Origin: Shewanella psychropiezotolerans
Lineage (GTDB): Bacteria > Pseudomonadota > Gammaproteobacteria > Enterobacterales > Shewanellaceae
Length of the DNA: 64,000 nucleotides
Direction: 5' to 3'
Assembly (NCBI RefSeq): GCF_007197555.1
Contig: NZ_CP041614.1
Span: 558,001 to 622,000, forward strand
Part shown: positions 3,001-31,255 of the stretch, piece by piece
Layout of the letters: each line of letters starts with the position of its first letter
How positions within the stretch are numbered: position 1 is the stretch's first letter
Translations under genes and position numbers: made by a program
The notes under the pieces: model-generated
Database searches by the model: none
What the model was told of the DNA's origin: nothing
The model's input: only the letters and a program-made list of their open reading frames with translations

Positions 3001-3324
3001 TGTCGTGTTGTTGTTTCACAACGTGTGAACCAAGGCATGACCATGATGTACCATGCTCAAGAGCGTATTATGAATGTACCTGGTAGTGAGATGACCGGTA
3101 CTCGTGGTGGTCACCATAACTCAGTGACTCGTATTGTGATGAAACCTACTCACATGATAGGTGGATATGCACAGCAATCTTGGGGCTTCAATTATTACGG
3201 AACGGTTGGTTGTAACCGCGACGAGATGGTGGTGGTTAGAAAGATGGATAAAGTTGATTGGTTAGAGGGTTCTAATACTGATGATCTGCCGCGTCCGTTA
3301 CCAACTAACCCAGATGAAGCTTAA
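1..3324 (+). CDS. narG: Respiratory nitrate reductase alpha subunit NarG (5'-partial, apparent frameshift)
   Basis: Molybdenum bis-MGD catalytic subunit of membrane-bound nitrate reductase; it reduces nitrate to nitrite on the cytoplasmic face. About 1,100 residues are visible and align by eye with E. coli NarG from roughly residue 155 to the C-terminus. Blocks such as GPDRVVGFSPIPAMSMVSYA, NHWYHMDMNYRGLINM, CGCVGQSGGGW and HNSVTRI are near identical. The N-terminus with the [4Fe-4S] ligands lies before the window. Reading upstream from codon 28 (GGFIRSSW), the same frame hits stops at 4 and 10, whereas positions 2-22 in the neighbouring frame encode a plausible NarG segment (YKSKRGM). One G appears to be missing from the G runs at 16-26. 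Either the gene is frameshifted or the sequence has a homopolymer error. narH follows after 11 bases. Confidence 0.95.
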
Positions 3325-3335
3325 GGAGTAGAACC

Positions 3336-4874: not shown

Positions 4875-4878
4875 TACT

Positions 4879-5613
4879 GTGCTGATCCTTAAAGTTGTTT
4901 CACGTCTATTAGATTATCCAACTGAAGCGCTGTTTGGCGCTGCCGATGAAATGATAAGTGTAGTGGAGCAGTCGGATGAACTCAGTGCTCAAAGCCGTGC
5001 GGCCTTGGTGGAGTTTATCCGCCAACTGACTGCAAGGGAGTTATATGACGCTCAGGAAAGTTATGACTTACTGTTTGATCGTGGTCGTGCACTTTCTCTA
5101 CTTTTGTTTGAACACGTTCACGGTGAATCCCGTGACCGTGGGCAGGCGATGGTAGATCTGATGAATGTCTATAAGTCTAATGGTTTTGAAGTTGATTCAT
5201 CTCAGCTGCCAGATTATATCCCTCTGTATCTTGAGTATTTGAGTGAGAAATTGCCAGTGTATATCCAAGAGTGGTTAGGGGATATTTGTCACATTTTAAC
5301 AATGTTGTCAGAGCGATTGATTGAGCGCAAGTGCCATTATAATGTGCTTCTAGATTTACTTATCGAAGTGTCCGGAGTCGAAGTCGACCGCGCAGAAATT
5401 GTTGATACAGTCAGCAAAGAGGTACGAGATGATACTGTCGAGGCAATTGATAAAGAGTGGGAAGATAAAGAGATTCGCTTTGATGATCCTATGGTTGGGG
5501 ACTGCCCGAAATCAGGTATTCACCATTCGCAGAAATCACTTGATCCTAATACTGTAAATCAAGTGCCTATTAGGTGGCATGATGCCGATGCTGCGCAAGT
5601 TGCAGGATTGTAA
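4879..5613 (+). CDS. narJ: Nitrate reductase assembly chaperone NarJ
   Basis: Cytoplasmic chaperone that holds NarGH while the molybdenum cofactor is inserted and before docking to NarI; not part of the finished enzyme. I start it at the GTG at 4879 (MLILKVVSRLLDYP), because this matches the family N-terminus and has GGAGGA at 4865-4870 upstream; a longer in-frame extension would overlap narH without homology. The protein is 244 residues. The highly conserved block LFDRGRALSLLLFEHVHGES, followed by RDRGQAMVDLM, is near residues 64-95. The C-terminal tail is acidic and slightly longer than in E. coli. Confidence 0.95.
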   Translation: MLILKVVSRLLDYPTEALFGAADEMISVVEQSDELSAQSRAALVEFIRQLTARELYDAQESYDLLFDRGRALSLLLFEHVHGESRDRGQAMVDLMNVYKSNGFEVDSSQLPDYIPLYLEYLSEKLPVYIQEWLGDICHILTMLSERLIERKCHYNVLLDLLIEVSGVEVDRAEIVDTVSKEVRDDTVEAIDKEWEDKEIRFDDPMVGDCPKSGIHHSQKSLDPNTVNQVPIRWHDADAAQVAGL

Positions 5614-5622
5614 GGAGAAATA

Positions 5623-6300
5623 ATGTCAAATTTAAATTTTTTACTTTTTGGGATATATCCCTTTATTGCTTTAACTGTGTTGGTTGTTGGTTGCTGGATT
5701 CGATATGATCGTGAACCATATTCATGGAAAGCGGACTCAAGTCAGCTTTTAGACCAAAAAGGGTTCCGCGTAGCGAGTAACCTGTTCCATATTGGTGTCA
5801 TTTTTGTTTTAGCGGGTCACTTTGTGGGTCTATTAACACCTGAGTCTGTCTATCATCATGTGATCTCTACGCCAAATAAACAGTTATTGGCAATGGTCAG
5901 TGGTGGCACATTTGGTGTTTTCTGTCTTATTGGTCTGGTCATGTTGATTAAACGTCGTTTAACTAACGCACGTGTAAGAGCCAACTCCAAGCGTTCAGAT
6001 ATCTTGGTATTGTGCCTGTTGCTGATACAGGTGCTACTGGGATTGATGACTATTGTTGTGTCTATGGACCACTTAGATGGTTCTGTAATGGCATTACTGG
6101 CTGATTGGGCACAGAGTCTCGTCACACTACAAGGTGTGCAAGCGGCAGAAGCGATTAATTCGGTCAATATTGTCTATAAAGTTCATATCTTAGTCGGCCT
6201 TACGTTAATCATGATCTTCCCATTCACACGTCTAGTCCATGTAATCAGTGTGCCAGTGAAGTACTTTGCACGTAACTACCAGATTGTACGTCAGCGCTAA
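5623..6300 (+). CDS. narI: Nitrate reductase gamma subunit NarI (cytochrome b)
   Basis: Diheme b-type membrane anchor that oxidises quinol at the periplasmic side and passes electrons to NarH. It is 225 residues, the same length as E. coli NarI. Five hydrophobic segments are visible, at about residues 4-24, 50-68, 85-105, 123-145 and 185-205. Candidate haem-ligand histidines lie in HIGVIFVLAGHFVG and in the last helix (KVHILVGLTLIMIFPFTRLVH). It starts 9 bases after narJ with AAGGAG upstream and ends the core narGHJI set. A hairpin follows at 6313-6344. Confidence 0.96.
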   Translation: MSNLNFLLFGIYPFIALTVLVVGCWIRYDREPYSWKADSSQLLDQKGFRVASNLFHIGVIFVLAGHFVGLLTPESVYHHVISTPNKQLLAMVSGGTFGVFCLIGLVMLIKRRLTNARVRANSKRSDILVLCLLLIQVLLGLMTIVVSMDHLDGSVMALLADWAQSLVTLQGVQAAEAINSVNIVYKVHILVGLTLIMIFPFTRLVHVISVPVKYFARNYQIVRQR

Positions 6301-11961: not shown

Positions 11962-13707
11962 TGTGATTACCGAGGGAGACTGACGGATTAATTACCGTGG
12001 GACTTTGTCGTTTTACACTATCGATATTAGTCCATTAATATCACTTTCACTAAGGTGTTTTTTCTAATGCCTCTGCACGCTCGATCCGTAACACCTTAGT
12101 ATTCAGTTTTTCTCTTACCCAGATGTTTCTGATTGTAGAGTGACTGATTGATATATTGTACCTTTTCATCATTTCACCGCTGATATGGATTTGGGTCAGG
12201 TGGGGTTTTTCTAACGTTAAGGTGATGATTTTATCCTCAGTATCTTGGTCTATACGATTGGTATGACGAGGGATGCCATACATCCTTTTGAGCGCCAGAG
12301 GTCCCTGAGTTTCAAGCAGCCGTCGATTATTGTAGATACTTTCCCTAGAGCAACCACTGATCCGAGCCGCTTCAGATAAGTTACCTAGCGCTTCTGCAAG
12401 TTTGATGGCATCGAGTTTTCTCTGCACTTCCTCTCCATATTCCGTGAGCTTGCTCGGCTCCTTGATTTCAGAGATGGCGAGCTTACGATCGGCAAAATAA
12501 GCGGCGAAGTCGCCATCTAACTGCTTTCGTATTTCAACTTTCTGGTTCACGATTGAATGCCTTAAGGGGAGTCTATCGTGTACATGGTGTTGCTGAAACT
12601 GAAGGTATGATCGCGCCGGATTTTTCTATATTCCTTTTGGATGCAGATCGCATCAAGGTCGATATACTTAGGAACGGGTTTGAATTCTGAGCGGATATTC
12701 TTTGCGTTGACGGTAAGTTTCGGCAACCAGTAATCTGGAATGAAAACGTTTTGAAGGTAATCATTGGCACTGTCCATATCCGCTATTTCTGCCAGACGAA
12801 GCTCAGGAACCAAGCGGTCTTGGAAGGTATCGAACGCTCGTTCAACCCGCCCTTTACCTTGAGGAGAGTTAGCAAAAATAATCTCTATCCCAAGCTCCTT
12901 ACAGGCCCTTTGCATTTGTGAGAAGTTACAACGCTTCGGTCCACCAAAGATGCCCGCTCTATCGACGTAAAGCGTCTTAAACAGCCCTCGCTTCTTGATA
13001 TAGGCTTTCATGACCTTCATACAACCAACGGTGGTCTCGGACGGGAAGAACTCGGCATGAATATCGCTGGTCGCATCGTCGATAATGGTGATTAAGCAAG
13101 ACTTATTATCACCGAACCACAGGTGTGGACTGCCATCCATTTGCAGCATTAATCCCGCAGACTCCATCCGCTCACGCCTTCTTCTCACTTTTGAACGGCG
13201 ATGCTTCGCTCGTTTCACATGGTGAATATCATGAGCCCAAGAGCGAAGAGTCTCACGCTTAACTTGAATACTTTCCACCACCTCTAACATGTCAGCCAAA
13301 TGCTGTAGGTTGAAGTCGTAGTATTTTTCTTTAATGAGTGACTGAACTTGTCTTTTCAATGTGCCAGGGATCTTGTTGGCAGGGGCTCTCCCCGTATTGC
13401 CATGGACAACAAAACGAATGCCATCTTTTTTGTATCGACTGAGATAGCGTTCAATGGTTCGACGGGACTTATTGAGCAGTTTTGAGGCGTTAAGAATGCT
13501 GATTTTGCCTTGAGCAACCTTAGCAATCACATCAACAGTAAGTTGGGATTGAGAATCCATAATGATCATCCTTAGTAACCTCTGAAAAGCTCACAGTGGC
13601 AATCAGAGAACTACTAAAAGTTAGATCCGTCAATTTCCCTTGGTAATTATTAAAAACGACAAAGTCGCTTGGTAGTTAAGGTACGACAAAGTCCCTTGGT
13701 GATCACA
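11962..13707 (-). mobile_element. Insertion sequence with multiple end repeats (IS1202/ISNCY-like)
   Basis: A 1,746-bp element with ends TGTGATTACC and GGTGATCACA (TG...CA termini). The flanking target duplication is TTTGAATTTTACTGGCC (11945-11961) and the same with one more T (13708-13725). Each end carries several copies of a roughly 23-bp motif close to TGATTACCAAGGGACTTTGTCG: 11963-11986 and 11987-12010 on the left, 13627-13650, 13657-13679 and 13684-13706 on the right in inverse orientation. Such arrays resemble transposase binding sites in Mu/Tn7-like systems. The long target duplication and DDE/rve transposase point to the IS1202 group, without certainty. It sits inside repeat copy C. 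Confidence 0.8.
12050..13569 (-). pseudogene. IS transposase (DDE/rve integrase fold), split by a 1-base frameshift
   Basis: The first ORF (13569 to 12562) has an N-terminal helix-turn-helix (ISILNASKLLNKSRRTIERYL), a basic linker and an integrase core: LQMDGSPHLWFG with the first Asp, IIDDATSDIHAEFF, LYVDRAGIF with the second, and SPQGKGRVERAFDTFQDRL with the catalytic Glu. It stops at TIDSP. The second ORF (from 12550, -1 frame) has another helix-turn-helix (EAARISGCSRESIYNNRRLL) and looks like the native C-terminal part. One missing base near 12562-12570 would join them into about 500 residues. Programmed -1 frameshifting is a weaker alternative, because the local sequence is not a classic slippery heptamer. 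Confidence 0.75.
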
Positions 13708-18674: not shown

Positions 18675-19487
18675 GTCGGATAAGCGGCACCTGTTACCAG
18701 GTGCCGCTCTCCTAAGAACCGTACGTGCAACTTTCACTGCATACGGCTCAAGCCTCCACTAAGGCGTACTATGTTACCCGGTAACCACAGGGGTTACCTT
18801 TGCAATACTCACTTGAAGCTTTGATACTTTCTGCTCTGTGACTTTCCTATCGAAGGATTGTCATTGAGCAAGCAAGGAGAGGCACTAACTTCATTTGAAG
18901 TCATCATTTGCGTTTCTCCATCAACAAAGTTCTTCAAACTTTCTTGCAACGGGAGACCAGCTGGAAGTGGGCTCACTTTTGTGCCAGACACAAGGTCTGT
19001 ATCTGCATCATTACAATGCAGCTTTGGCTTTCTCCAGCCTCCTTTACCTGCACCACTATCGGCTATCTTCACAGATAACTTTCCCAATGGGAGTGATACA
19101 GGCTTACCGTGTTCCGTATGTCGCGCAATGTCAGGTTAGATGCCCACTCTAGTGCGGAGAGCTTTACAACCACGAAAGAGCATTGCCCAATCTCTTTCCT
19201 ACTCTCGTTGCCATTTTGGCCACAGCGTATAAACCACTTCCGCTGCTTCTCATATAACGCACCTTACATGGATTCACATATGTTCATCATACTGACTCCC
19301 TAGCACTTACCCGACTTGTGGTTATCAGGAAGAACGTCCTCTCACGATTCTGTTCCCATTCGGTATAAAACCAAATTTCGTTACATTGTCTGGCTCGCTA
19401 CTTTATTCAGAGCCATAGGGTCATCTGGTGATACAGATGGTTCACTCAAAAGCGGTGAACAGCGCTTCATACGACTTCACGTCGCAC
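18675..19487 (-). mobile_element. ORF-less group II intron
   Basis: Read on the minus strand, the element starts GTGCGACGTGAAGTCG, matching the group II 5' consensus GTGYG. It ends after domain V (18716-18749, with AGCCGTATGC, a GAAA tetraloop and GCACGTACGGTT) and a domain VI hairpin with perfect 11-bp arms AGCGGCACCTG and CAGGTGCCGCT (18683-18708); the last bases are TATCCGAC, fitting the 3' AY rule. At 813 nt it has no room for a maturase; the open frame inside (18809-19087) has no reverse-transcriptase motifs and is intron RNA. It would depend on a maturase in trans, if still mobile. The exact 3' boundary is inferred. Confidence 0.8.
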
Positions 19488-20068: not shown

Positions 20069-20746
20069 TCAAAATCCCCAGTCTTCCTCCTTTATTTTTG
20101 GCATATCTTGATGGCATTGATAGCATTGTAACTGCTGAGATTCATAATAGTTATGGTCCTCATCGCTGCCGCCTTTGTAGGCTATTACTCCCTCAGGAAG
20201 TTGATGAGCTATGCCCTTGTGGCAATCGATACAGGTCTTATCTCGTTTCTGTGCATGCTGATGAACCAGACCGCTGCGACTCTGTTGAGCCGTGATATCC
20301 ATTGCATCAAAGTTATGACAATTACGGCACTCCCTCGAGTTTGTCTGCTTCATACTTGCCCATACTCTTTCTGCCAGCACTTTACGCTTTGCGGTAAACT
20401 TCTCAGTGGTGTCGATAGAGCCTATCAGTTTATGAAATAGCTCTCTTGATGCGTTAATTTTTCTGACCATCATGTACTCCCACTCCTTTGGGACATGGCA
20501 GTCAGGGCATGTAGCGCGAACTCCGGTACGATTTTGATAGTGAACCGTCTGCTGATATTCCGGATAGATGTTATCTTTCATCTCGTGGCAGCTGATACAG
20601 AAGCTCATTTTGTTAGTCTCCTCCAGTACGGTATTGAAGGCACCCCAATAGATCACGCCAATAAACATAAAGAAGACAGCGACTCCCACAGTGCTGCCGA
20701 AGATTATCTTTCTGTTGAGTATCTTCCTATAGAGGCTTAGCATCAT
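20069..20746 (-). CDS. Pentaheme NapC/NirT-family quinol-oxidising cytochrome c
   Basis: Membrane-anchored multiheme cytochrome predicted to take electrons from quinol and pass them to periplasmic partners. I start at ATG 20746 (MMLSLYRKILNRK), which has AAGG just upstream and overlaps the hemerythrin gene by 20 bases. One N-terminal membrane helix (IIFGSTVGVAVFFMFIGVIYW) is followed by five CxxCH motifs: CISCH, CPDCH, CRNCH, CIDCH and CYQCH. Classic NapC, NrfH and CymA have four; the fifth is appended near the C-terminus in a protein of only 225 residues. It is the last gene of the Nap-like operon. Confidence 0.9.
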   Translation of the reverse strand: MMLSLYRKILNRKIIFGSTVGVAVFFMFIGVIYWGAFNTVLEETNKMSFCISCHEMKDNIYPEYQQTVHYQNRTGVRATCPDCHVPKEWEYMMVRKINASRELFHKLIGSIDTTEKFTAKRKVLAERVWASMKQTNSRECRNCHNFDAMDITAQQSRSGLVHQHAQKRDKTCIDCHKGIAHQLPEGVIAYKGGSDEDHNYYESQQLQCYQCHQDMPKIKEEDWGF

Positions 20747-21350
20747 CAATCCTTGGTTTATGGAGCTCAGCATCGTCATCAAGCTTGGTGATGGTCAGGT
20801 AGGGGATATATTGCCGATCGTTGCCTTTGATATGGTTCATTAACCAAGATTGTAGGAATTGGAGAATATGATCGAGTGCAACATCGGGATCGCTGCGGTA
20901 CTCCTTCATATATAACTCTATTTCATCGATCATCTGTTGATGTTGAAGCTGGTGCTCCTTTAATCCAGGGTACTGATTGAGCGCCATCAACTGCTCTTCA
21001 CGATTAAAGTGGTATTTGGTGTAACGGATCACTTCATCTAGTGCTAACTGTACCTTGCGCTCTGAAATATTAAATTCAGTGGCCTCTTGAAATATATTGG
21101 TCAGCATGATGAGTCGCTTATGGTCATGGTCAATAAGCGCTATGCCTGTAGCCATGCTGTCTTGCCATACCAGTTGTTTTTTCTTAAGCAACTTGTCATG
21201 AATAATACCGATAGTGACCAAGACGCCAATGACAATCCAGGGCAGTGGGTGACCAAAGCCCAGCATGAAACTTAGGATGACAATGATAAGTAGCGCCATG
21301 ATCAGAATTGACAGAAGAAACATGTTAATAGTCCTACTTATCATGCTCAT
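20727..21350 (-). CDS. Membrane-anchored bacteriohemerythrin
   Basis: The protein has 207 residues. Two hydrophobic helices (about residues 8-30 and 36-48) anchor a C-terminal hemerythrin domain. Di-iron ligand motifs are visible: GIALIDHDHKRL, HFNREEQLM (HxxxE), HQQMIDEI and HIKGNDRQY (HxxxxD). It should bind O2 or NO through a non-haem di-iron centre, probably on the cytoplasmic side given the short first loop. It overlaps the preceding NapG-like gene by 4 bases, so it is an integral operon member. Oxygen or NO sensing, or scavenging to protect Fe-S proteins, are the plausible roles. Confidence 0.88.
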   Translation of the reverse strand: MSMISRTINMFLLSILIMALLIIVILSFMLGFGHPLPWIVIGVLVTIGIIHDKLLKKKQLVWQDSMATGIALIDHDHKRLIMLTNIFQEATEFNISERKVQLALDEVIRYTKYHFNREEQLMALNQYPGLKEHQLQHQQMIDEIELYMKEYRSDPDVALDHILQFLQSWLMNHIKGNDRQYIPYLTITKLDDDAELHKPRIDDAKPL

Positions 21351-22066
21351 GATATCTGCCCTGTTTCAGTAGATTGGCTATCGGCTGGACCGAAATGACC
21401 CACCTCAATTGCCTTCGGCATAGTGATGCAGGCTTGTACACATTGACCGCAACCCACACAAGTATCCACCTTGATGCTGGGTTTCTCATTGTGCCAAGTT
21501 AAGGTGTTCTCAATAGGGCAGCTACCAAAGCAAGCACCACATTCTGGGCCAGAATAGGGCATACATAGGTCAGTATTAACTCTTGCTATGGCCATAGGTG
21601 GACATTGATTGGCGGCGGGAAACGATTCAATATGTGTTGCTGGATCTGCCTGTTCGTCTGGGAATGCACCTTCAACAATAGGGGGCTCAGCCCTCTCCAG
21701 CTCTGGTTGCTTTGCAGGAAAAGCTAGCGCCTTGTCTTTACATACCGTGACACAGGGCCAATCACAGCAGAGCTCGCATGCTTTGTTGGGGATATCCATC
21801 GCTGGGGTTGCAACTGCTACAGTGCCACGATGAAGTGGCAGCTCAAAGATTACTTGGTGTGGGCAAGCCTTGATACACTCGCCGCAGCGGCTACAGTTGA
21901 GTAGGAAGTCGAGTTCATTGATGGCAAAGGGAGGGCGTATCCAACCTTTGGCATTGTGCTCGACTTTTTTCAGGGCATGCTCGGAGCCTATATCAGCGAT
22001 CTTACTGAAGCTAGATTTGAAAAAGCTGCGACGATCCATTAACTGTGTTTTACTCTGATCGCTCAT
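21347..22066 (-). CDS. NapG/NapF-type ferredoxin with multiple [4Fe-4S] clusters (second module)
   Basis: A 239-residue iron-sulfur protein. The N-terminus DRRSFFKSSFSKI resembles a degenerate Tat signal. Cysteine groups are CSRCGECIKACP near residue 54, CELCCDWPCVTVC near 92, CMPYSGPECGACFGSCP near 168 and CVGCGQCVQACI near 203, which fits three to four [4Fe-4S] clusters. A Pro/Glu-rich insert lies at about 110-150. It starts 3 bases after the NapH-like gene and overlaps hemerythrin, so the three are co-expressed. Probable role: electron relay on the periplasmic face. Confidence 0.85.
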   Translation of the reverse strand: MSDQSKTQLMDRRSFFKSSFSKIADIGSEHALKKVEHNAKGWIRPPFAINELDFLLNCSRCGECIKACPHQVIFELPLHRGTVAVATPAMDIPNKACELCCDWPCVTVCKDKALAFPAKQPELERAEPPIVEGAFPDEQADPATHIESFPAANQCPPMAIARVNTDLCMPYSGPECGACFGSCPIENTLTWHNEKPSIKVDTCVGCGQCVQACITMPKAIEVGHFGPADSQSTETGQIS

Positions 22067-22069
22067 CGG

Positions 22070-23611
22070 CTACATTCTCATCGTCATCGGTTGCACTAAC
22101 ATCCACAGGTTAAACCCAGTAACAAGCGCAGCGAATAGGATCATGGGCAGAAGTGTGATGCCTTGGGCTGCAAATAAGCGGTGACCTCGATGGCGTATCA
22201 CCTGAGTCGCGATAACAAATCCTATGGCTATAATGATTCCCTGCATGATAAATAGGGTATTTTCTGAGACCATCATCTCCATATGACGCGTATGCTTCTC
22301 CATCATACTCAATGGCTCAGCCCCCGTGCCCAATGGATTCGTCACCAGTGATAACCAGTCGCTGCTTTCACGAACAAAATGGGTGAGGTTATGAGCAATG
22401 TGATAACTAAATGCCAGCGGAAGGGAGATAAAGGCAAAGCCAGAAAATAGCTTGTTAAAGCTGAGTTTAGTCACCATTGCACCAAGCCTTTTCTTCAGTA
22501 ATCCTTGGGTCAGGCCTATGCAGAGGCAATAGATAAAGATAGGCAAGATCAGGGTGACGCCTAAGCCGATAGAGAAGCTGATAATCAGCTGGCCACTGTC
22601 ATTAATCAGTTGTGCCATCTCGCTTAAGTAGCCCTCCCAGTAGTCAAGCATGGTTAAGCCATGAAAGAGGGTGAGAGATAACAGGATTAGCAAGAAAAAG
22701 GCCTCATCCATGTGAGGCTTAGCCTCTTTTATCGCTTCACTGCTTGGGGACCTCAATTGCCAGCTGACATTGCTTGAGGGGCAGCTTTGGGTGCAGTTAC
22801 CGCATGAGGTGCAGTAGGTGTTCTCCTGCAATCGCCCCATGACTATCTTCGTTGGGCAGGGCGCTATTTTGTCACTGCCATGGAAACACTCCAAGGTTTT
22901 ACAGTTACGGCAGATCTCACTATCTATCGGCCTAAGGGCGATAGGGGCGAGTTGCGAGTATGCGCCAACGGTTCTTCCTACCGGACACATGTAACGGCAG
23001 AAGGCCTTACCCTCAAACAGTGCCAGCGTGGTGGTGGCTAAAATAAGCATCAATAGTGCCAGCATGGCTGTAGCGTAGGGGCTGGCGACAATACCAATTC
23101 CTAGCTCTAACCAGGTGAAACCGATAAATAACAGGCTTGCAGGCCAGACACTGCGTAACATATTGGGTACTTTTAGCTGCAGTCGACTCTGTGAGCTGGA
23201 GCGGCGCCAGATGCTGTGATTGACTAACCAGCTGGCGATATTGTCCCAGGGGCAGAGTGCGCACCAAGCAGAGCCGCTAAACACGATAGCAATAATAATT
23301 CCCGTCCACCATAAGTTCCAAGTGAGTGTGGTGGCTAAGTTGCGCTCAACAATCGGCGTGCCCCACAAACCTGCGGTGATGACGGTGATAAACAGTGCGG
23401 CAAAGATAATCTTTAGCAGTAAAAGTGGCCAGGTATACTTGGCAAGAAAACGAAACAGGTCACCAATAAGCGGCAATTTAGCTAAAGATATGCTGCGGCT
23501 AGCACTCGTTGTCGGTGCTTTGATAGCCATGGTTAATAGACCCAATAACAGCATCATAATGCCGATAGCATAAGCCCAGTAGAGGGGGAGTCCAGGGTGG
23601 GTCATTATCAT
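22070..23611 (-). CDS. Polytopic NapH/CcoG-like ferredoxin (second module)
   Basis: A 513-residue membrane iron-sulfur protein. Several helices surround two cytoplasm-facing CxxxCP-type motifs (CALCPWD near residue 116, CRYMCPVG near 209). Ferredoxin groups CRNCKTLECF with a downstream CP, and CTSCGNCTQSCP (near 265) follow. After these comes a large helical C-terminal domain (HGLTMLDYWEGYLSEM, SIGLGVTLILPIFIYCLC) absent from E. coli NapH. This size and layout resembles NosR-type and CcoG-type electron carriers as much as NapH. It overlaps the YtkA/FixH-like gene by 4 bases. Confidence 0.82.
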   Translation of the reverse strand: MIMTHPGLPLYWAYAIGIMMLLLGLLTMAIKAPTTSASRSISLAKLPLIGDLFRFLAKYTWPLLLLKIIFAALFITVITAGLWGTPIVERNLATTLTWNLWWTGIIIAIVFSGSAWCALCPWDNIASWLVNHSIWRRSSSQSRLQLKVPNMLRSVWPASLLFIGFTWLELGIGIVASPYATAMLALLMLILATTTLALFEGKAFCRYMCPVGRTVGAYSQLAPIALRPIDSEICRNCKTLECFHGSDKIAPCPTKIVMGRLQENTYCTSCGNCTQSCPSSNVSWQLRSPSSEAIKEAKPHMDEAFFLLILLSLTLFHGLTMLDYWEGYLSEMAQLINDSGQLIISFSIGLGVTLILPIFIYCLCIGLTQGLLKKRLGAMVTKLSFNKLFSGFAFISLPLAFSYHIAHNLTHFVRESSDWLSLVTNPLGTGAEPLSMMEKHTRHMEMMVSENTLFIMQGIIIAIGFVIATQVIRHRGHRLFAAQGITLLPMILFAALVTGFNLWMLVQPMTMRM

Positions 23612-24225
23612 ACGGTTTGTCCCTGTTGGATCTTAGTGCGAGCAATCCGCTTACGTTGCACAATATTGATCATCAGTAGGAGAAAGAAGATAAAGCCCAC
23701 AGCAGCGCCAATAGGACCGACAGGGCTTGCAGCCCCCACTTGCAGAGGAAAATCTATCTCGTAGGGCTCACCATTATCTTCAAAGTAGGCACGAATGATG
23801 TAACTGCCGCGACTCTTAAAGAGGAAGCCTTGGCGATATACACCATCATCAATATTCTGCTGGCCTATCACCTCAGGTTTTGCGCCGTCGCCGATGCCTA
23901 TGCTCTCACCCCAAAAGGTATCGTCACGCACGGTGAAGGTGATCGTTTGGTCGAGCATCTCGCCATTATCTATCCGTGTGGCGTATATATTGACTCGACC
24001 TGGCTCGTTGGGTTTAGGGAAAGCGGGAAATACCATATAGGTGATAAAGTACTCGCCTATCTGAGTCTCAATCGCCATGCTCGGTGGTGTATTAGAGTCC
24101 TCATTAAGGCTATATGAGGGACGACCCAGTACGTGATGCGCATGAGTTAATGCGCTAAATAGTGCCAGAGCACACAGTAGCAATCCCGATAATATTGGTG
24201 TTGTTTTACTTGTTATTTTTATCAT
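23608..24225 (-). CDS. Exported FixH/YtkA-like protein with C-terminal membrane helix
   Basis: The protein has 205 residues. An N-terminal signal (ILSGLLLCALALFSALTHA) is followed by a periplasmic beta-sandwich-like region (GEYFITYMVFPAFPKPNEPG, then KSRGSYIIRAYFEDNGEPYE) and one C-terminal helix (PIGAAVGFIFFLLLMINIV) with a basic cytoplasmic tail. The layout resembles YtkA/FixH-type accessory proteins of metalloenzyme assembly. The HAHH stretch at the start of the mature part could bind metal. No substrate or partner can be named; the 4-base overlap with the next gene ties it to the operon. Confidence 0.65.
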   Translation of the reverse strand: MIKITSKTTPILSGLLLCALALFSALTHAHHVLGRPSYSLNEDSNTPPSMAIETQIGEYFITYMVFPAFPKPNEPGRVNIYATRIDNGEMLDQTITFTVRDDTFWGESIGIGDGAKPEVIGQQNIDDGVYRQGFLFKSRGSYIIRAYFEDNGEPYEIDFPLQVGAASPVGPIGAAVGFIFFLLLMINIVQRKRIARTKIQQGQTV

Positions 24226-24286
24226 CTATTTACTACTCATTAATTTTAATCATTCGCTAGGATGACAATCACTAAGCTGATCCTCA

Positions 24287-25348
24287 CTAGTCGATATTTT
24301 TAACTGAAATCGTTTCGCTATTGGCTATCTTTTGCTGGCGATACTGTCGGCTTTGGTGGCCCGGGCCTTGGTTGGGGGTATCTGAAATTGACAGCGTCAG
24401 GCTCATTGCATGCTTAGGGCAAACAGAGATACAGGCGGTGCAGTTATTGCACTCGGCGCCAAAACTGTCCCGCATCGGATCTAAGCCAAACTCACATACC
24501 GAATTACACTTGTTACAGTCATTGCAGGGCTCAACTAAGCGCTTTACTCTGACTATTCTGTATCGTCCAAGCAGTGAGTAGAGCGCGCCACCTGGGCAGA
24601 GGTAACGACAGATCCCGCGGCGGCTGACAAAGGTGTCAAACAGCAGAGTGAGGATAAAAAACAGGGTACCGGCGCCGAAACCTGATAATGCGATAGAGAA
24701 GTACAGCTCTCTGCCCAGTACTGCTGGTGGATAGATGCTGGCGAAGGCGAGTGTGCCTGTGTATGCCGATATCCCTATGCCCAGACCCAGTACTAGGTAT
24801 TTAATACTCTTGTGAAAGCGTCTGTTGTTATTGATACCAAAGCGGCTGAGGTAAATTGATAGGTTGGAGTTGAGCTCATAGATAAAGGTGGCTGGACAGA
24901 TCCAGCCACAGAAAAAGCGTCCAAACAGCAGGGTGGCTAATAGGGGAATAAGTGCCGTGAGTAATAAGGGCCAATAGATCTTGAGGCTTGCTGCAATCTG
25001 TCCGACCACGGCTAAGGGATCGGTGAGCTTGACGCCAAATAGCTGCCCCGACCAAGTCGTCCCTTTAATGGCATCGAGATCATGCTCAGGCTCATCGACA
25101 AACGGGGATGAGATAAACTCCATGGTGTCATAAAGCAAGGTTTGCGATGGCAACAGGTGGTTATATCCCTGCGCTGCGACGTAATGCTGGTAGATGCTGA
25201 GCAGCGGGATCAAGATCAGCATTAAAAATACCACCGAGAGTGAAAACCAGCGCAACTTATTGAGGTGTTTCCACAGTGCGAATGGTTTGCTGCTTGTTAT
25301 CGGTTTACCTTTGTTTAGACCCGCTTGGGTAAACTCCTTATCCATCAT
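24287..25348 (-). CDS. napH: NapH-like quinol-dehydrogenase ferredoxin (first module)
   Basis: A 353-residue polytopic membrane protein with an N-terminal cytoplasmic segment, four or so helices, two CxxxCP motifs (FCGWICP near residue 146, CRYLCPGG near 249) and two C-terminal ferredoxin clusters (CNDCNKCNSVC near 275, CNNCTACISVCP near 302). NapH with NapG forms a non-NapC quinol oxidase feeding the Nap enzyme in E. coli. It overlaps the NapG-like gene by 4 bases (ATGA). The gene symbol reflects family, not proven function. Confidence 0.85.
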   Translation of the reverse strand: MMDKEFTQAGLNKGKPITSSKPFALWKHLNKLRWFSLSVVFLMLILIPLLSIYQHYVAAQGYNHLLPSQTLLYDTMEFISSPFVDEPEHDLDAIKGTTWSGQLFGVKLTDPLAVVGQIAASLKIYWPLLLTALIPLLATLLFGRFFCGWICPATFIYELNSNLSIYLSRFGINNNRRFHKSIKYLVLGLGIGISAYTGTLAFASIYPPAVLGRELYFSIALSGFGAGTLFFILTLLFDTFVSRRGICRYLCPGGALYSLLGRYRIVRVKRLVEPCNDCNKCNSVCEFGLDPMRDSFGAECNNCTACISVCPKHAMSLTLSISDTPNQGPGHQSRQYRQQKIANSETISVKNID

Positions 25349-25950
25349 GAGCTCCTAAGTTGATCTAAGGTGTGGCTGGGGATGATCTTGATAGCTTGAG
25401 GGATCTGAATACAGCTGCTCTCGCATAGTCCACAGCCTACGCAGGCATCGAGCACCTCTGGCTGCTCCATAAAGCCCACGATAATTGCTTTATCTTGTAG
25501 AGGGCAGGCGCGGTAACAGACGCCGCAAGATTTCCCCTGCCAAGAGAGGCATAGCTGTTTATCGACACGGGCTATGCCCATGTTGACCTGTTCGATTATT
25601 GGGGTGAGTTCGCGTTTAACCGGTTGAATTGCACCACTTGGGCAGACATCACCACACTTCATACACAAGATGCAGGCTTTCTCTCTTGGGCTGATATAAG
25701 GGGTGCCATGGGACGCAATGCCATTTTCACTGCCGAAGAATTTGATACAGTTATTGGGGCAGATCTCGGCGCACTGATTACAGCGTATACACTGACTGAT
25801 AAAGTCATCTTCAGCCAATGAACCCGGTGGACGAACATAGCGTTGGGTAAACTGCTTAACCTTGAAGGCCGCGTTGACCAGTGAGGTTTTAAGCGTGACT
25901 CCAACAGCGGTAAGTACACTCAGTTGTTTAATAAAATGACGTCTATTCAA
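25345..25950 (-). CDS. napG: NapG-like periplasmic ferredoxin (first module)
   Basis: A 201-residue protein with a Tat-like start (NRRHFIKQLSVLTAVGVTLK). Four [4Fe-4S] groups follow: CIRCNQCAEICP near residue 54, CILCMKCGDVCP near 92, CLSWQGKSCGVCYRACP near 132 and CVGCGLCESSC near 167. RYVRPPG near residue 38 and the GTPY block match E. coli NapG closely. Predicted to accept electrons from NapH and pass them to the molybdoenzyme or its cytochrome. It follows the NapA-like gene after a strong hairpin. Confidence 0.87.
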   Translation of the reverse strand: MNRRHFIKQLSVLTAVGVTLKTSLVNAAFKVKQFTQRYVRPPGSLAEDDFISQCIRCNQCAEICPNNCIKFFGSENGIASHGTPYISPREKACILCMKCGDVCPSGAIQPVKRELTPIIEQVNMGIARVDKQLCLSWQGKSCGVCYRACPLQDKAIIVGFMEQPEVLDACVGCGLCESSCIQIPQAIKIIPSHTLDQLRSS

Positions 25951-25977
25951 ATTACTACCACTTTAATGATTATTAGA

Positions 25978-26017
25978 AAGAGCTAGCACTCGACCTGTAA
26001 GGCTAGTGCTAGCTCTT
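25978..26017 (-). promoter_or_regulatory. Intercistronic 13-bp hairpin between NapA-like gene and NapG
   Basis: AAGAGCTAGCACT and AGTGCTAGCTCTT are perfect arms around a 14-base loop. In the minus direction a weak TCTAATAAT follows. It may partly stop transcription or protect the upstream cytochrome/NapA mRNA, giving more of the enzyme than of the membrane module. Confidence 0.6.
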
Positions 26018-26028
26018 AGGTCTATTGG

Positions 26029-28737
26029 CTAGATCTTCTCAATCCTTGCTGCCAACTTCTTAAAGTCCACCTGCCCAGATACCGGATCCCAGCAACGGTT
26101 GGAGATACCATTTGCCAGCCACTTGTTCTTTTTAGGGTCGGCACTGTCAGCAACAGAGAGGTTCCACGGGCCAAACATATAGCCTCTTGGCACACTGTTA
26201 CGTGCGGGTTTAACTATGCTGTCGGTGCCGCCAACCTGAGCACGCGCCTCGAGTGAACCTCGTCTGGTCACGACGCGCACCCACTCGCCATCTTTAATGC
26301 CAAGATCTTTAGCATCTTCACTATGCATCTCCACATACATCTCAGGCACTAGACGTCGTGTGGTGGGGCTACGATTAGATTTCGCGGTATGAAAATGCTC
26401 ATAAACAACACCTAGACCCATCCAATAGGGGTATTTGTCGTTTGGAACTTCCTTCCAGGGAATTCCTCTGAACTCCTCATCGGGAAGATCGGGCGTTAAT
26501 CCCATATCGCGTGCCTTGATGATCAGATCTTGGTTATCTATGGTGTAGTGATCTTTCTTCACCCCAAACTCCATCAACTTCTTGGTGATCTCTTTACGTT
26601 GACTGTAGTCCTGCTTACACAGCTTCATGTTGACCTTGCCATCTTTGGTACGGAAGTAGCCGTATGGACGATTCTCCCACTGGCCCTCCTGCATCATATA
26701 GCGGCGCTTAGTGCCGCCATTTTTGGCTGAGTCATAGTTAGGCGCTGGCCACTGAATACCGCGCAGGGTTTTCAGTTGCTCGTAGGGGCTAATACCATCG
26801 AGTTTTTCACGCTCCAGGATCCCGGTAAGATCGGCATCGGTGCCTACCGATGCACGGCAGACATCTCTAAACACCTCCTCGGCGTCATACTCACCATCTT
26901 CACCCCGCTTGTAGGGGAAGATAGCGTCGCCATCCATGCCCAGCAGGTCAGCGATCTCCTTACCCTTGTCGATGACCATATCCATATCTGGACGACAGCC
27001 CTTAGGACCTTGTGCCGCCTTTTCGGTGATATTGATACGACGCTCTGAGCTGATGTAGACACCGTTGACTTCACCCCAAGTACAAGCCGGAAATATCACA
27101 TCGGCGTAGAGGTTATTGGGTGCATGACGATAGATCTCCTGCACCACGTTGAAGGTTTTCAGCAATGCAGGCCGGACTAAATTGTATTGATCGGGAAGAT
27201 CGATATGGGTGGCGTAGACCAGGAACATCGCCTTAAGGTCGTCCTTAAGTGCCCGCTCCATCATACCCACCGCAAAACCTGGATTAGGGGAGTTGGCGGC
27301 ATTATCGAGGTTTTTCTCCGGGATGCGCCACATCTTAGCCATATGTTTACGGTGCTTAAGATTACTTAACCCTTCGTTAAAAGGCAGACGGCCGGTTAAG
27401 CCACCGGTGAAACGCTCGCCCATCGCATTGGGCTGACCCGTCATCGAGAAGGGGCCACATCCGGGCTTAGCGAGGTTGCCGGTTAAGGTGAGTAGGTTGA
27501 TGATTGAGATAACATTGTGCTGACCGTGGATATGCTGGTTATAGCCAATCCCCCACATGATGATCACGCCACCAGTACCTTTACCATCTTGCTTACCCTT
27601 ACCACGGGCCAAACGTTTGCGAGTTGCATCGGCAAACATCTGCGCCACTTGGCGGATCTTCTCTGGGTTTACATCGTGATTAACGCCGCCCATTCTGTCT
27701 TGAACTTGCTCTGGGCTGTAGTCATTCTGCACCCCTTCGACATATTCCTCCCAGCCATTAACGTGCGCCTTGAGAAAATCCCAATCGATCACATCTTTAT
27801 GCTCTTTAAGTAGCACATGGGCAATCGAGTTTAGGAAGCTGATATCACCATTAAGAATTGGCACATGAACATGATTCTTGCTGTTAATATCCTCATAGCC
27901 CTTGCTGGTACCCGTTTCACGTGGGTCGACCACTACTGTCGGGATATCATTTTTCTTCTTATAGTCAGCGATACGCCAGAAGATAATAGGGTGTGACTCA
28001 CGGGCATTATGACCAAAATGCATCACCATATCGGACATCTCGATATCGTCATATGCCAGCGGCGGTGTATCAGAGCCTAAGGTGGCAAAGTAGCCCGTTA
28101 CCGCTGAGGTCATGCACATACGTGCGTTGGCTTCGATGGTATTTGATCCCAAAACGCCCTTCATAAAGAGGTTCTCTAGATATTGCCCCTCCATGGTGAG
28201 CTGGCCAGAACCATAAAGAGAGATAGAGTTACCCGAATATTTCTTAGCGAAGTGAACGACTTTACGCGCCACCATATCTGAGGCGTCATGGTATGGAACC
28301 CGGATAAAATGCTCTTCGTCGAATGAACCTTTGGTGTTACTGATATATTCGATATTACCGTGATTAGGCTTTTGCCATTCTGCCCAGACATCCTTACGTA
28401 CGTAGGGGTCTCCCTCCATACGGTCAACATACATAGGCTCTGCAGCCGTTAAGCCTTTGATACACTGCAGTCCGTAGTTGGTTGGGTGGTCCTTGTCGGG
28501 ACGCATTGAGACAATTTTGCCATCCTCAGCCTGAATAATGGTGCCACAACCGACTCCGCAGTAGGGACATTGGGCTAATGCTGTGGTTCTTTTCTTAGGT
28601 GCTGCAGTTGCTGGTGCGGCTTCAAGTTCTGGGTTGCTCGCGACAAATAATCCGCCACCTGCTGCAGTTGTTGCAATAAAACCACTACCCTTTAGGAAAT
28701 TTCGGCGTGATACATTGTTTTCCTTACTTCGTTTCAT
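26029..28737 (-). CDS. NapA-like periplasmic molybdopterin oxidoreductase (nitrate-reductase family)
   Basis: A 902-residue Tat-exported catalytic subunit; SRRNFLKGSGFIATTAAGG is the twin-arginine signal. The [4Fe-4S] site is C57-x2-C60-x3-C64-x27-C92 followed by IKG. The Mo ligand is the Cys of NARMCMTSAV, as in NapA/NasA. TGNLAKPGCGPFSMTGQPNAMGERF and the C-terminal dinucleotide-binding domain (PEMYVEMHSEDAKDLGIKDG) are also family features. It is about 75 residues longer than E. coli NapA and lacks NapB and NapD neighbours. AAGGAA precedes the ATG. Nitrate is the default substrate, but the atypical operon leaves this open. Confidence 0.88.
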   Translation of the reverse strand: MKRSKENNVSRRNFLKGSGFIATTAAGGGLFVASNPELEAAPATAAPKKRTTALAQCPYCGVGCGTIIQAEDGKIVSMRPDKDHPTNYGLQCIKGLTAAEPMYVDRMEGDPYVRKDVWAEWQKPNHGNIEYISNTKGSFDEEHFIRVPYHDASDMVARKVVHFAKKYSGNSISLYGSGQLTMEGQYLENLFMKGVLGSNTIEANARMCMTSAVTGYFATLGSDTPPLAYDDIEMSDMVMHFGHNARESHPIIFWRIADYKKKNDIPTVVVDPRETGTSKGYEDINSKNHVHVPILNGDISFLNSIAHVLLKEHKDVIDWDFLKAHVNGWEEYVEGVQNDYSPEQVQDRMGGVNHDVNPEKIRQVAQMFADATRKRLARGKGKQDGKGTGGVIIMWGIGYNQHIHGQHNVISIINLLTLTGNLAKPGCGPFSMTGQPNAMGERFTGGLTGRLPFNEGLSNLKHRKHMAKMWRIPEKNLDNAANSPNPGFAVGMMERALKDDLKAMFLVYATHIDLPDQYNLVRPALLKTFNVVQEIYRHAPNNLYADVIFPACTWGEVNGVYISSERRINITEKAAQGPKGCRPDMDMVIDKGKEIADLLGMDGDAIFPYKRGEDGEYDAEEVFRDVCRASVGTDADLTGILEREKLDGISPYEQLKTLRGIQWPAPNYDSAKNGGTKRRYMMQEGQWENRPYGYFRTKDGKVNMKLCKQDYSQRKEITKKLMEFGVKKDHYTIDNQDLIIKARDMGLTPDLPDEEFRGIPWKEVPNDKYPYWMGLGVVYEHFHTAKSNRSPTTRRLVPEMYVEMHSEDAKDLGIKDGEWVRVVTRRGSLEARAQVGGTDSIVKPARNSVPRGYMFGPWNLSVADSADPKKNKWLANGISNRCWDPVSGQVDFKKLAARIEKI

Positions 28738-28747
28738 CTCAAATTCC

Positions 28748-29398
28748 TTACTTATTTAGGGTGCGCAGATAGGTGATAATGTCTTCAATCTCTTGCTCAT
28801 CTAGATTGGCCAGTCCAGCAGAACCGTAGAAGGGCAACATGCGGGTATTGGAGCGGCCGTATTTGATGGTTTCACGGATAAAGCCGTCACTCGCCTTGTT
28901 AAGGAAACCCGGTTTACCAATGGCGGTGCCCGATGACCCCGCTAAATAACCGTCACCCTTGGGGCCGTGACAGGTAGAGCAGATATCGTGATACCAAAGC
29001 TCCCCTTTGCGGGCATCGCCCTGCGCTGAACGCTGCTTATCGACTTCGGCTGAGCGGTGTGGAAGGGTTTCATGGCTTCTGAGGTAGGCTACAATCGCGA
29101 CAATTTTCTCTTTGCCAAGATGGGCATAAGGACCCATAGCGGTACCAATACGGCCGTCTCGGATGGTGGATGCCAAGTATTTATCCGATGCAATTGCCAA
29201 CAACTCAGGGTTGGAGAGCGAGGGGGCAAAGCCGGTTTTTCCAATTGCGTCAGCTTGATGGCAAAAAACACAGTTTTGCTTGTATAGCATCTCGCCTTGA
29301 TCGATAAGTTTTTGACTGTTTGCGCTCACATTCACATTGCATAAAATGCTGAGAAATAGGATTGCAGACAGAGAAGATAGCTTTCTAACTCTTGTCAT
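28748..29398 (-). CDS. Exported diheme cytochrome c
   Basis: I start at ATG 29398 (MTRVRKLSSLSAILFLSIL), preceded by GGAGTGTTAT; an upstream in-frame ATG at 29428 has no such site. The signal peptide probably ends at NVSA. Two class I cytochrome domains follow, each with a haem site (CVFCH near residue 43 and CSTCH near 140) and Met-ligand regions (GTAMGPYAHLGKE, TRMLPFYG). It is the first gene of the Nap-like operon, 10 bases before the molybdoenzyme, and takes the position of NapB as the likely direct electron donor, though it is unrelated to NapB. Confidence 0.88.
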   Translation of the reverse strand: MTRVRKLSSLSAILFLSILCNVNVSANSQKLIDQGEMLYKQNCVFCHQADAIGKTGFAPSLSNPELLAIASDKYLASTIRDGRIGTAMGPYAHLGKEKIVAIVAYLRSHETLPHRSAEVDKQRSAQGDARKGELWYHDICSTCHGPKGDGYLAGSSGTAIGKPGFLNKASDGFIRETIKYGRSNTRMLPFYGSAGLANLDEQEIEDIITYLRTLNK

Positions 29399-29970
29399 AT
29401 AACACTCCGAAATAATCATATTATTCATACTTTTTGATTTTCATTAGCAATTCATGGTAAATAAACGATAATAATCAATCGCCTACTGGAAAGTCGTGTT
29501 TAACTTCGACTTTTACCGTCCTGTTAATAAAATGTTGCTCACTCTTTATTTAACCTAATACACCTATCGAATTAGTGTCTATTGCTTTTATGGCAGATCA
29601 GCAGGAACTTAAAGCTGGGTTGATGTGGATCAAGAATTTCTTGCTATTGTGATGGTGGTCAAATAACAATCTATTTAATTAGTGGTAGATGACTTTAAGG
29701 CTCACTTGGTAGCAGGCTAATTTGAGGAGAATATGAATATATGAGTCGTGAGGTCATGAATGATGACGATACCCATGACTTAGCTGGAATATGACTAAAT
29801 TACTTTTATACTGGCCTGAAGATGATGATTTACTGGTTTTTCGGGTTATTTTTTATCGAACCATCAAACTTTCAATAATTACTTTCATGAATTAATTTTC
29901 ATTGTGGTTGAATTTATATTCACGTGCTAGGGTGCTTTGCATGCTTAGAGAGTTTTTAATGGAGTTGTAG
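29399..29970. other. 570-bp regulatory gap between divergent Nap-like operon and ppnP
   Basis: No gene seen. A perfect FNR site lies at 29620-29633. The rest is AT-rich, with no hairpin or further motif I can support. Confidence 0.6.
29620..29633. promoter_or_regulatory. FNR box
   Basis: TTGATGTGGATCAA, a perfect match to TTGAT-N4-ATCAA. It is 222 bases upstream of the first cytochrome gene of the Nap-like operon and 337 bases upstream of ppnP; the anaerobic operon is the more likely target, with a long leader. Confidence 0.8.
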
Positions 29971-30326: not shown

Positions 30327-30360
30327 ATCACTTATCACTTATCACTTATCACTTATCACA
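30326..30360. repeat. 7-bp tandem repeat (five copies)
   Basis: TATCACT is repeated four times and followed by TATCACA. The repeat spans the stop codon of the EamA gene on the minus strand, so copy-number change would alter its last residues. Confidence 0.85.
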
Positions 30361-31255
30361 CTTGCTTGTTTCTCTTTATTTAGCGCCGATCTATTGCGTA
30401 TAAGTCCTATGACCTGTGGCATAAGAGAGCATAAAATCATGCTGCCCATCAAGGCATATTGGTGGGGCGTAAACATCTCTCCCAAGAGCAACATTCCTGT
30501 GATTATCCCCGCAACCGGATTGGCAATACCACCGAAAGTAAAATCGACCACAGTCATTCTCTGCAGTAACCAGACATACATTATGTAGCCTAGGGCAGTA
30601 TTGAGCAGTGCTATCCACAGTAGGCCTAAGCCATGAGTTAGGTTGAAACTATGTAATACCTCAACATAGACATCGGGGAGATAAGGGCGTGGATCCCAGC
30701 TGCCACCGCCAATATGCTCCCTCCTAAGATCAGTTGCCATGTCAACACGCTCCACCACTGGATACGGCTTCCCAGTGCTTTTGTGATGCTACTTCCCACT
30801 ACGATACAGATGATCGCGCCGAGCATGGCGAGCATGCCGATAGGATTAAGGCTTATTGAGCCCGGATCGAATAAGAGCCAGGCTAACACGATTAACAAGA
30901 AACCGAAGAAGGCTTGTATAGCCTTGGGTCGGCGCTTGCTCACAATCCAGTGATAGAGCATGGCAAATACAGGTACAGATATCATGCCGACACCGGAAAT
31001 TGCCGAGGGTAAGGTGAGTGCCATCACGAATATCAGGCTGAAGAAGGCGGCGATATTGATGCTTCCTAACTTGAACAAGATGCCCCAATCACTTCGCCTA
31101 GGTAAGTTAGGCTTAATCGCTAGCAAGATGAGTCCGGTCGGAAGTGCCCTGAGTGCTCCCAGTAATAGTGGGGGCCAATCCGGTAGGCTAAACTGGGTCA
31201 CGGCATAGGTGGTCCCCCAGAAAAATGCTGGGATCATCGCGAGTAATATATTCAT
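30342..31255 (-). pseudogene. EamA/DMT-family permease, broken by a 1-base frameshift
   Basis: A ten-helix drug/metabolite transporter of about 300 residues is reconstructed from two frames. The first (31255 down) starts MNILLAMIPAFFWGTTYAVT and carries the first EamA repeat (GALRALPTGLILLA). It is diverted at the C4 run (30675-30678) into a short wrong tail (MSMLRYYIVST). Adding one C gives ISPDVYVEVLHSFNLTHGLG and the second repeat (IALLNTALGYIMYVWLLQR, ANPVAGIITGMLLLGE). It is divergent from a MarR gene, which probably regulates it through the dyads in between. The substrate is unknown. Confidence 0.85.

Follow-up and report, generated by a model that had tools for sequence, protein, structure and literature searches.

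A putative periplasmic molybdenum reductase of a separate lineage beside NapA and NasA, encoded in a conserved operon without NapB and NapD

Within a 64,000-nucleotide stretch of the genome of Shewanella psychropiezotolerans (RefSeq assembly GCF_007197555.1, contig NZ_CP041614.1, positions 558,001 to 622,000; hereafter the window), nine genes form an operon that has the anatomy of a periplasmic nitrate reductase (Nap) system, but its 902-residue catalytic enzyme is not NapA, and neither NapB nor NapD is encoded alongside it. What sort of reductase is this, and what does it reduce? By model score and phylogeny the enzyme appears to be a separate lineage beside NapA and NasA, and we are inclined, if by a narrow balance, to see in the operon an anaerobically induced, quinol-fed periplasmic molybdenum (Mo) reductase, a third lineage in addition to those two, whose substrate would most likely be nitrate. 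The special part is this enzyme lineage with its conserved module, free of NapD and preceded by an FNR-type box, and not the hemerythrin that the operon also carries. The host genome is a single contig of 6.45 Mb, and the nine open reading frames (ORFs) are open and intact, running from window position 29428 down to 20069:

29620..29633, minus strand: box TTGAT-N4-ATCAA of FNR/EtrA/DNR type, located some 200 bases ahead of the operon's first gene and the sole perfect match in the window
28748..29428, minus strand: diheme class I cytochrome c with two CxxCH motifs (Pfam PF13442, PF00034), in the NapB position
26029..28737, minus strand: 902-residue molybdopterin reductase with Tat motif, the catalytic subunit, placed by profile scores, alignment and tree
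25345..25950, minus strand: NapG-like ferredoxin (NapG1) with Tat-like N-terminus and four 4Fe-4S-type Cys groups (NapG model 147 bits, cut-off 269)
24287..25348, minus strand: NapH-like membrane ferredoxin, putative quinol dehydrogenase partner, with membrane segments and Cys motifs (NapH model 148 bits, cut-off 234)
23608..24225, minus strand: 205-residue beta-sandwich protein with signal-like N-terminal helix, His-His and C-terminal membrane helix (predicted CrdA/P19-like fold)
22070..23611, minus strand: large 513-residue NapH-like membrane ferredoxin (NapH2) with an extra C-terminal membrane domain, from topology (NapH/MauN family 37.5 bits, cut-off 213; NapH model 30 bits, cut-off 234)
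21347..22066, minus strand: second NapG-like ferredoxin (NapG2) with Tat-like N-terminus and Cys motifs (NapG model 94 bits, cut-off 269)
20727..21350, minus strand: membrane-anchored bacteriohemerythrin (NF033749, 112 bits, over the cut-off of 84)
20069..20782, minus strand: five-heme membrane cytochrome of the NapC/NirT family (PF03264, 246 bits; five CxxCH)

The gene content and order match those described in an earlier reading of the sequence without database searches (the sequence-only reading), which had also supposed that most neighbours overlap by 4 bases; this is true of only three of the eight junctions, one other being an overlap of 56 bases and four being gaps of 3 to 78 bases. Both NapG/NapH pairs fall under the cut-offs of the NapG and NapH models, and these proteins are, on such scores, relatives of the named equivalogs and not the equivalogs themselves.

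The enzyme lies well below the cut-off of each family model against which it was scored. It reaches 331 bits with the NapA model NF010055 (cut-off 904) and 311 bits with TIGR01706 (cut-off 931), 324 bits with the formate dehydrogenase alpha model (cut-off 666), and 245 of 1100 and 271 of 1000 bits with the assimilatory models NasC and NasA. Aligned to five NapA proteins it is 29.6-33.7% identical, which may be judged by the yardstick of E. coli NapA and one Nas protein, themselves 31.9% identical. In a phylogeny of 29 rows, from which TorA, a DmsA-like enzyme, an unassigned enzyme of the same genome and the L017 neighbour were dropped, the enzyme and its relatives form a clade with support of 100/100 on a stem of 2.74 changes per column, while the five NapA rows, Selenomonas included, group at 100/100 without it; the clade is placed beside NapA at 95/88, and the three Nas rows join next at 94/92. 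A smaller tree, built without six of the clade rows and two rows on long branches, gives the same placement and again a NapA branch without the enzyme, although a topology uniting the enzyme clade with Nas obtains an approximately unbiased test value (p-AU) of 0.0524, which falls short of a firm rejection. A phylogeny had been proposed by the sequence-only reading; both trees put the enzyme outside the NapA clade, and nesting within canonical NapA is ruled out by the fully supported NapA branch.

What the enzyme has in common with NapA (TIGR01706/PRK13532) is the Tat motif, an N-terminal 4Fe-4S cluster, the Mo-ligand Cys followed by Met, and a conserved Arg, as well as partners of the NapC and NapGH types. 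The operon differs from Nap systems in having a five-heme and not a four-heme NapC, a large NapH and additional ferredoxins, and a diheme class I cytochrome in place of NapB. With NasA and NasC the enzyme shares the motif GQPNAMG-R and the Cys-Met pair; Nas enzymes are cytoplasmic, however, and the Nas references adjoin nirB/nirD genes, whereas this enzyme carries a Tat motif and belongs to a respiratory operon.

By alignment its active site is of the nitrate-reductase type with one changed residue, to which we return below. In alignment with the NapA of D. desulfuricans, for whose Cys140, Met141, Asp155, Glu156 and Arg354 we assume the roles usually given to them, Cys140 corresponds to C208 of the window protein, Met141 to M209, Asp155 to D223 and Arg354 to R442 (numbering is one lower in alignments A1 and A2, where the window protein lacks its first Met). 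Together with the 4Fe-4S and Tat motifs, the predicted Mo-ligand Cys, the Met and the substrate-site Arg are all present, and Cys-Met and Arg are kept in all 14 clade rows compared and invariant in a 27-row clade alignment. The Met is missing from four formate dehydrogenase rows, being His in E. coli FdhF, Haloarcula and an FdhA-like protein of the same genome, and Gln in Pantoea; a fifth row labelled formate dehydrogenase-like (L041, also from this genome) does have Cys-Met, and is under both the formate dehydrogenase and the NasC cut-offs. A structure predicted for the enzyme from the 27-row alignment was poor, with a mean predicted local distance difference test score (pLDDT) of 50.1.

The gene set is kept as a unit in many genomes, as emerged from the neighbourhood comparison that the sequence-only reading had recommended. 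A scan of a genome collection returned 36 enzyme loci with best-segment identities of 73-99%, from Shewanella, Colwellia, Photobacterium and metagenome-assembled genomes (MAGs), which are mostly of Gamma- or Alphaproteobacteria with one of Magnetococcales, and mostly marine; the closest matches (96-99%) are in Shewanella species. Judged where the contigs reach, the typical module consists of the diheme cytochrome c, NapG/NapH, often a further NapG, the beta-sandwich membrane protein, NapG2, usually NapH2, and the five-heme NapC. The cytochrome c lies upstream of the enzyme in 32/36 loci, the other four beginning at or near a contig edge, and two CxxCH motifs are found in 32 of 33 related cytochrome c ORFs. 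NapG1 lies downstream of the enzyme in 35 loci and the remaining locus ends at a contig edge, while a further NapG-like gene that the window operon does not have is present in 21 of the 36. Five CxxCH motifs occur in 23 of 24 relatives of the operon NapC. At the 25 loci with NapG2, NapH2 is missing in seven (BLAST, E 1e-6) and hemerythrin is present in just three at the same threshold; hemerythrin is therefore an accessory of a few lineages, so that of the nine-gene set first described the module is conserved and the hemerythrin is not. The catalytic subunit is better conserved than its partners.

The distribution of the enzyme is patchy within Shewanella, where 5 of 117 genomes have it, this one included, and perhaps reflects transfer; one of three further Shewanella loci has the flanking genes of the window. 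Among 398 genomes of the phylum there were 11 hits at E 1e-90, again including this genome, and all were at least 72% identical (both searches scored the best few candidates per genome). No sequences between this clade (at least 72%) and NapA (at most 34%) appeared among the matches listed, in searches that were not built for distant intermediates. Enzyme matches occur in 1184 plasmid records, all below 60% identity, and the 60 matches listed reach at most 30.1%; NapH2 relatives are found in 10 plasmid records, and the three surroundings inspected bear no relation to this operon.

A Nap-like system without NapD in its operon might still borrow the chaperone from elsewhere, and the genomes that carry the enzyme bear on this. 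There are 46 such carriers, G285 and G536 being counted once on account of identical contig coordinates and size, and statements on NapA and NarG refer to the matches listed. NapD is present in 21 carriers, namely the 20 with NapA over its cut-off and G537, which has a partial NapA match of 878 bits. It was not found in the other 25, of which 24 are also without NapA while in the last, G542, the NapA match is split in two; five of the 24 (G142, G205, G221, G232 and G261) are 91-99% complete. From this the enzyme seems not to need NapD, within the limits set by MAG completeness. NapB is likewise without a counterpart in the operon, where the cytochrome matches PF13442 and PF00034 and not NapB, and both PF03892 matches of the window genome adjoin canonical napA genes. 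The sequence-only reading would have been refuted by an enzyme nested inside canonical NapA, with napB and napD elsewhere in the genome and plain nitrate reductase activity; napB and napD do lie elsewhere, but the enzyme does not nest inside NapA, and the proposal of an alternative periplasmic reductase with neither protein in its operon and more than one type of quinol-linked partner is supported.

Several Nap systems already described invite comparison. The published picture for Shewanella, as far as the passages in question go, comprises two systems, NAP-alpha (napEDABC) and NAP-beta (napDAGHB) (PMC6308320). The napGHCAD cluster of Sporomusa ovata, with a napA of 2262 bases, shares NapG, NapH and NapC with the present operon and has NapD, while the relevant part of its account names no NapB (PMC12780646); the Nap system of Deferrivibrio, which has NapG and NapH in common with it, also includes NapD and, in the corresponding part of its source, no named NapB (PMC11896075). 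Unlike either, this operon has no NapD. Selenomonas has a cluster that includes NapD, a pair of ferredoxins and NapC, and its NapA falls inside the NapA clade.

The upstream regions point to anaerobic control by a regulator of the FNR/EtrA or DNR type. With at most one mismatch, TTGAT-N4-ATCAA is present in 20 of 27 upstream regions, where dinucleotide shuffles would lead one to expect 0.91, and perfect copies are present in 10, where 0.03 would be expected. Six further loci add one box, which is perfect, giving 21 of 33 regions in all, a count that includes near-copies (L003-L005, L007 and L036). In the 27 regions three control patterns gave 0, 1 and 1, and a CRP-like pattern gave 3 against 0.22 expected. 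Upstream sequence was absent or too short at four of the 36 loci; L013 offered only 141 bases and L029 only 81. An FNR-like gene was seen by eye at three of the 36 loci (L016, L032 and L035).

On these grounds we propose a model in which the five-heme NapC and one or two modules of the NapG/NapH type would oxidise quinol at the membrane. Electrons would reach the 902-residue enzyme by way of the diheme class I cytochrome c, standing in for NapB, and the 4Fe-4S cluster of the enzyme would deliver them to a Mo-bis(pyranopterin guanine dinucleotide) centre for the reduction of a periplasmic oxyanion, most likely nitrate, yielding nitrite for further reduction. The order of electron transfer is taken from the established roles of NapC and NapGH (PMC12780646), and it is the direction of flow, the contacts between partners, anaerobic induction and the substrate that we infer. 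With two to three inputs of the NapG type, coupling to the quinol pool may differ from that in Nap.

That nitrate is the substrate is suggested by the company the enzyme keeps. The heme-d1 domain of NirS, NirF and NirN (PF02239) is present in 23 of 46 carriers, and in the phylum sample in 53 of 398 genomes (a comparison that is uncorrected for kinship and in which the carriers are no random sample), and in 13 of the 23 carriers with neither NapA nor NarG (the NapA matches in G537 and G542 and the NarG fragments in G515 being taken as present); this enrichment points towards nitrate. The 13 include G221, which is 99% complete, and G261, which is 96% complete with 6% contamination. Of the families searched, this enzyme is the strongest candidate for the respiratory reduction of nitrate in these 13 genomes. 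It had been argued that coexistence with NarGHJI makes nitrate unlikely, and this is weakened both by the heme-d1 genes and by the finding that narG is over its cut-off in just 2 of 46 carriers; another substrate keeps some standing because canonical NapA occurs in 20.

Several observations weigh against this reading. The 20 carriers with canonical NapA over the cut-off include the window genome, which has two canonical NapA genes, in napDABC and napDAB loci, and the changed residue of the active site is T224, where D. desulfuricans NapA has Glu156. Since PF02239 covers NirF and NirN too, it is relevant that the match exceeds 450 bits in only 15 of the 46 carriers; when only the random phylum sample is considered, the enrichment is weak, the domain being present in 4 of its 11 carriers and in 49 of the 387 other genomes (p 0.045, kinship uncorrected). 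No heme-d1 gene was found in 10 of the 23 carriers without NapA and NarG. NrfA is present in six carriers, all with NapA, and in none of those 23, and NirK is over its cut-off in none of the 46, with one weak match in G256. Among the 40 largest clusters of flanking ORFs no recurrent transporter, for nitrate or otherwise, and no recurrent two-component or other regulator was seen by eye. Since the majority of the carriers are MAGs or have no stated completeness, genes missing from them may be missing sequence.

The chief rival reading is that the reductase is of this type but that its physiological substrate is another oxyanion or an N-oxide, for example iodate, selenate or chlorate, with nitrate at most a side substrate. 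We regard this as a minority possibility, to be taken seriously. In its favour are the carriers that have canonical NapA already, the 30-34% identity to NapA, the long stem and the Thr in place of Glu156, and the high conservation of the catalytic subunit relative to its partners looks as if it were tuned to a particular one. Set against this, the Mo-ligand Cys, Met and Arg are those of nitrate reductases, and the carriers are enriched in heme-d1 genes.

The remaining explanations fare worse. That a canonical Nap has merely drifted or swapped accessory genes, and relies on a chaperone and a NapB encoded elsewhere, would suit the napD and napB genes elsewhere in the window genome and the NapC, NapG and NapH families common to both systems, but it is improbable and largely contradicted by the NapA grouping, by the 24 carriers with neither NapD nor NapA, and by the lack of bridging sequences among matches from searches not designed to find remote ones. 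An enzyme working in reverse, as a dehydrogenase whose electrons would go to the cytochrome c and from there to oxidases, we consider very unlikely. The adjoining class I diheme cytochrome c, a formate dehydrogenase score (324 bits) close to that of NapA (331 bits) and the abutment of the operon on cytochrome bc1-like genes in one locus are what might be expected of it; the Cys-Met pair, where the four formate dehydrogenases compared have Cys/Sec-His or Cys-Gln, the several partners of the quinol dehydrogenase type and the anaerobic-type boxes are not.

The state of narG in the window genome was dropped as an argument. The window begins within this gene, which is read in two frames and is followed by narHJI-like genes, as seen by eye (the whole within 1-6300), but frame breaks are not rare in the assembly and may be sequence errors or real breaks. 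Also read in two frames are the canonical napB and the canonical napC of the other locus (L056, about 4417-4880, and L055, about 4788-5377) and an EamA-like gene beside the operon (window 30342-31255), which is open in L003.

The 205-residue protein had been labelled YtkA/FixH-like, a label with little basis, as neither YtkA (PF13115) nor FixH matches the window protein and YtkA matches only 1 of 24 family members (E 0.19). Profile searches returned no significant sequence family for it, and no plasmid match was found. Its predicted model has a signal-like N-terminal helix, a beta-sandwich and a C-terminal helix (pLDDT 80.6), with a His-His pair after the first helix that is invariant in 24 rows, in a stretch where pLDDT is below 50. 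By Z score the best structural match is the copper-binding CrdA (Z 11.6, root-mean-square deviation 2.4 over 106 residues), followed by FetP/P19; ranked by Foldseek E-value, other beta-sandwiches precede CrdA, namely a complement C5 domain, a GAE domain, a lipoprotein and PmoD. This predicted fold suggests a possible role in metal handling, the His-His pair might form a copper site near the N-terminus, and the C-terminal membrane helix distinguishes the protein from the CrdA and FetP/P19 copper-binding type.

Denitrification begins with the reduction of nitrate, a capacity for which napA and narG are the usual genomic markers. One study that includes such scoring is PMC10993476. We found no description of this gene set in the open-licence literature searched, so that prior characterisation, which might have undone the claim of novelty, did not come to light there. 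It is quite possible, though less likely than not, that the operon represents a third class of periplasmic nitrate reductase, dissimilatory and needing neither NapB nor NapD, which is the sole nitrate-reducing enzyme of some marine denitrifying Gamma- and Alphaproteobacteria, a first step of denitrification overlooked by napA/narG surveys. An enzyme so far under the napA and narG models, preceded by FNR-type boxes and present in heme-d1-bearing genomes without either gene would be missed by current marker models, and, if nitrate is the substrate, it would change which organisms of vents and oxygen-poor seas are counted among the nitrate reducers. Should the substrate be something else, this would be an uncharacterised respiratory reductase conserved at 72% identity or more across Gamma- and Alphaproteobacteria. 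Culturable members of Shewanella and Photobacterium would allow its substrate to be tested directly.

Some minor observations concern individual loci. G531 and G532 have two enzyme-like matches each, suggesting two copies, and on L035, a contig labelled Flavobacteriales that is perhaps misbinned, the enzyme is found at 81% identity in two frames. In the MAG contig L086 (11837-15359) the operon runs directly into genes for a small cytochrome c and for Rieske, cytochrome b and cytochrome c1-like proteins, as read by eye, an arrangement that hints at a bc1-linked route. In the window itself, transposase-like ORFs were seen by eye at 12050-13569, between the nar genes and the operon, and just downstream of the operon, on the minus strand at 18675-19440, lie group II intron pieces matching RF02012 and RF00029, with no ORF of reverse-transcriptase size between them.

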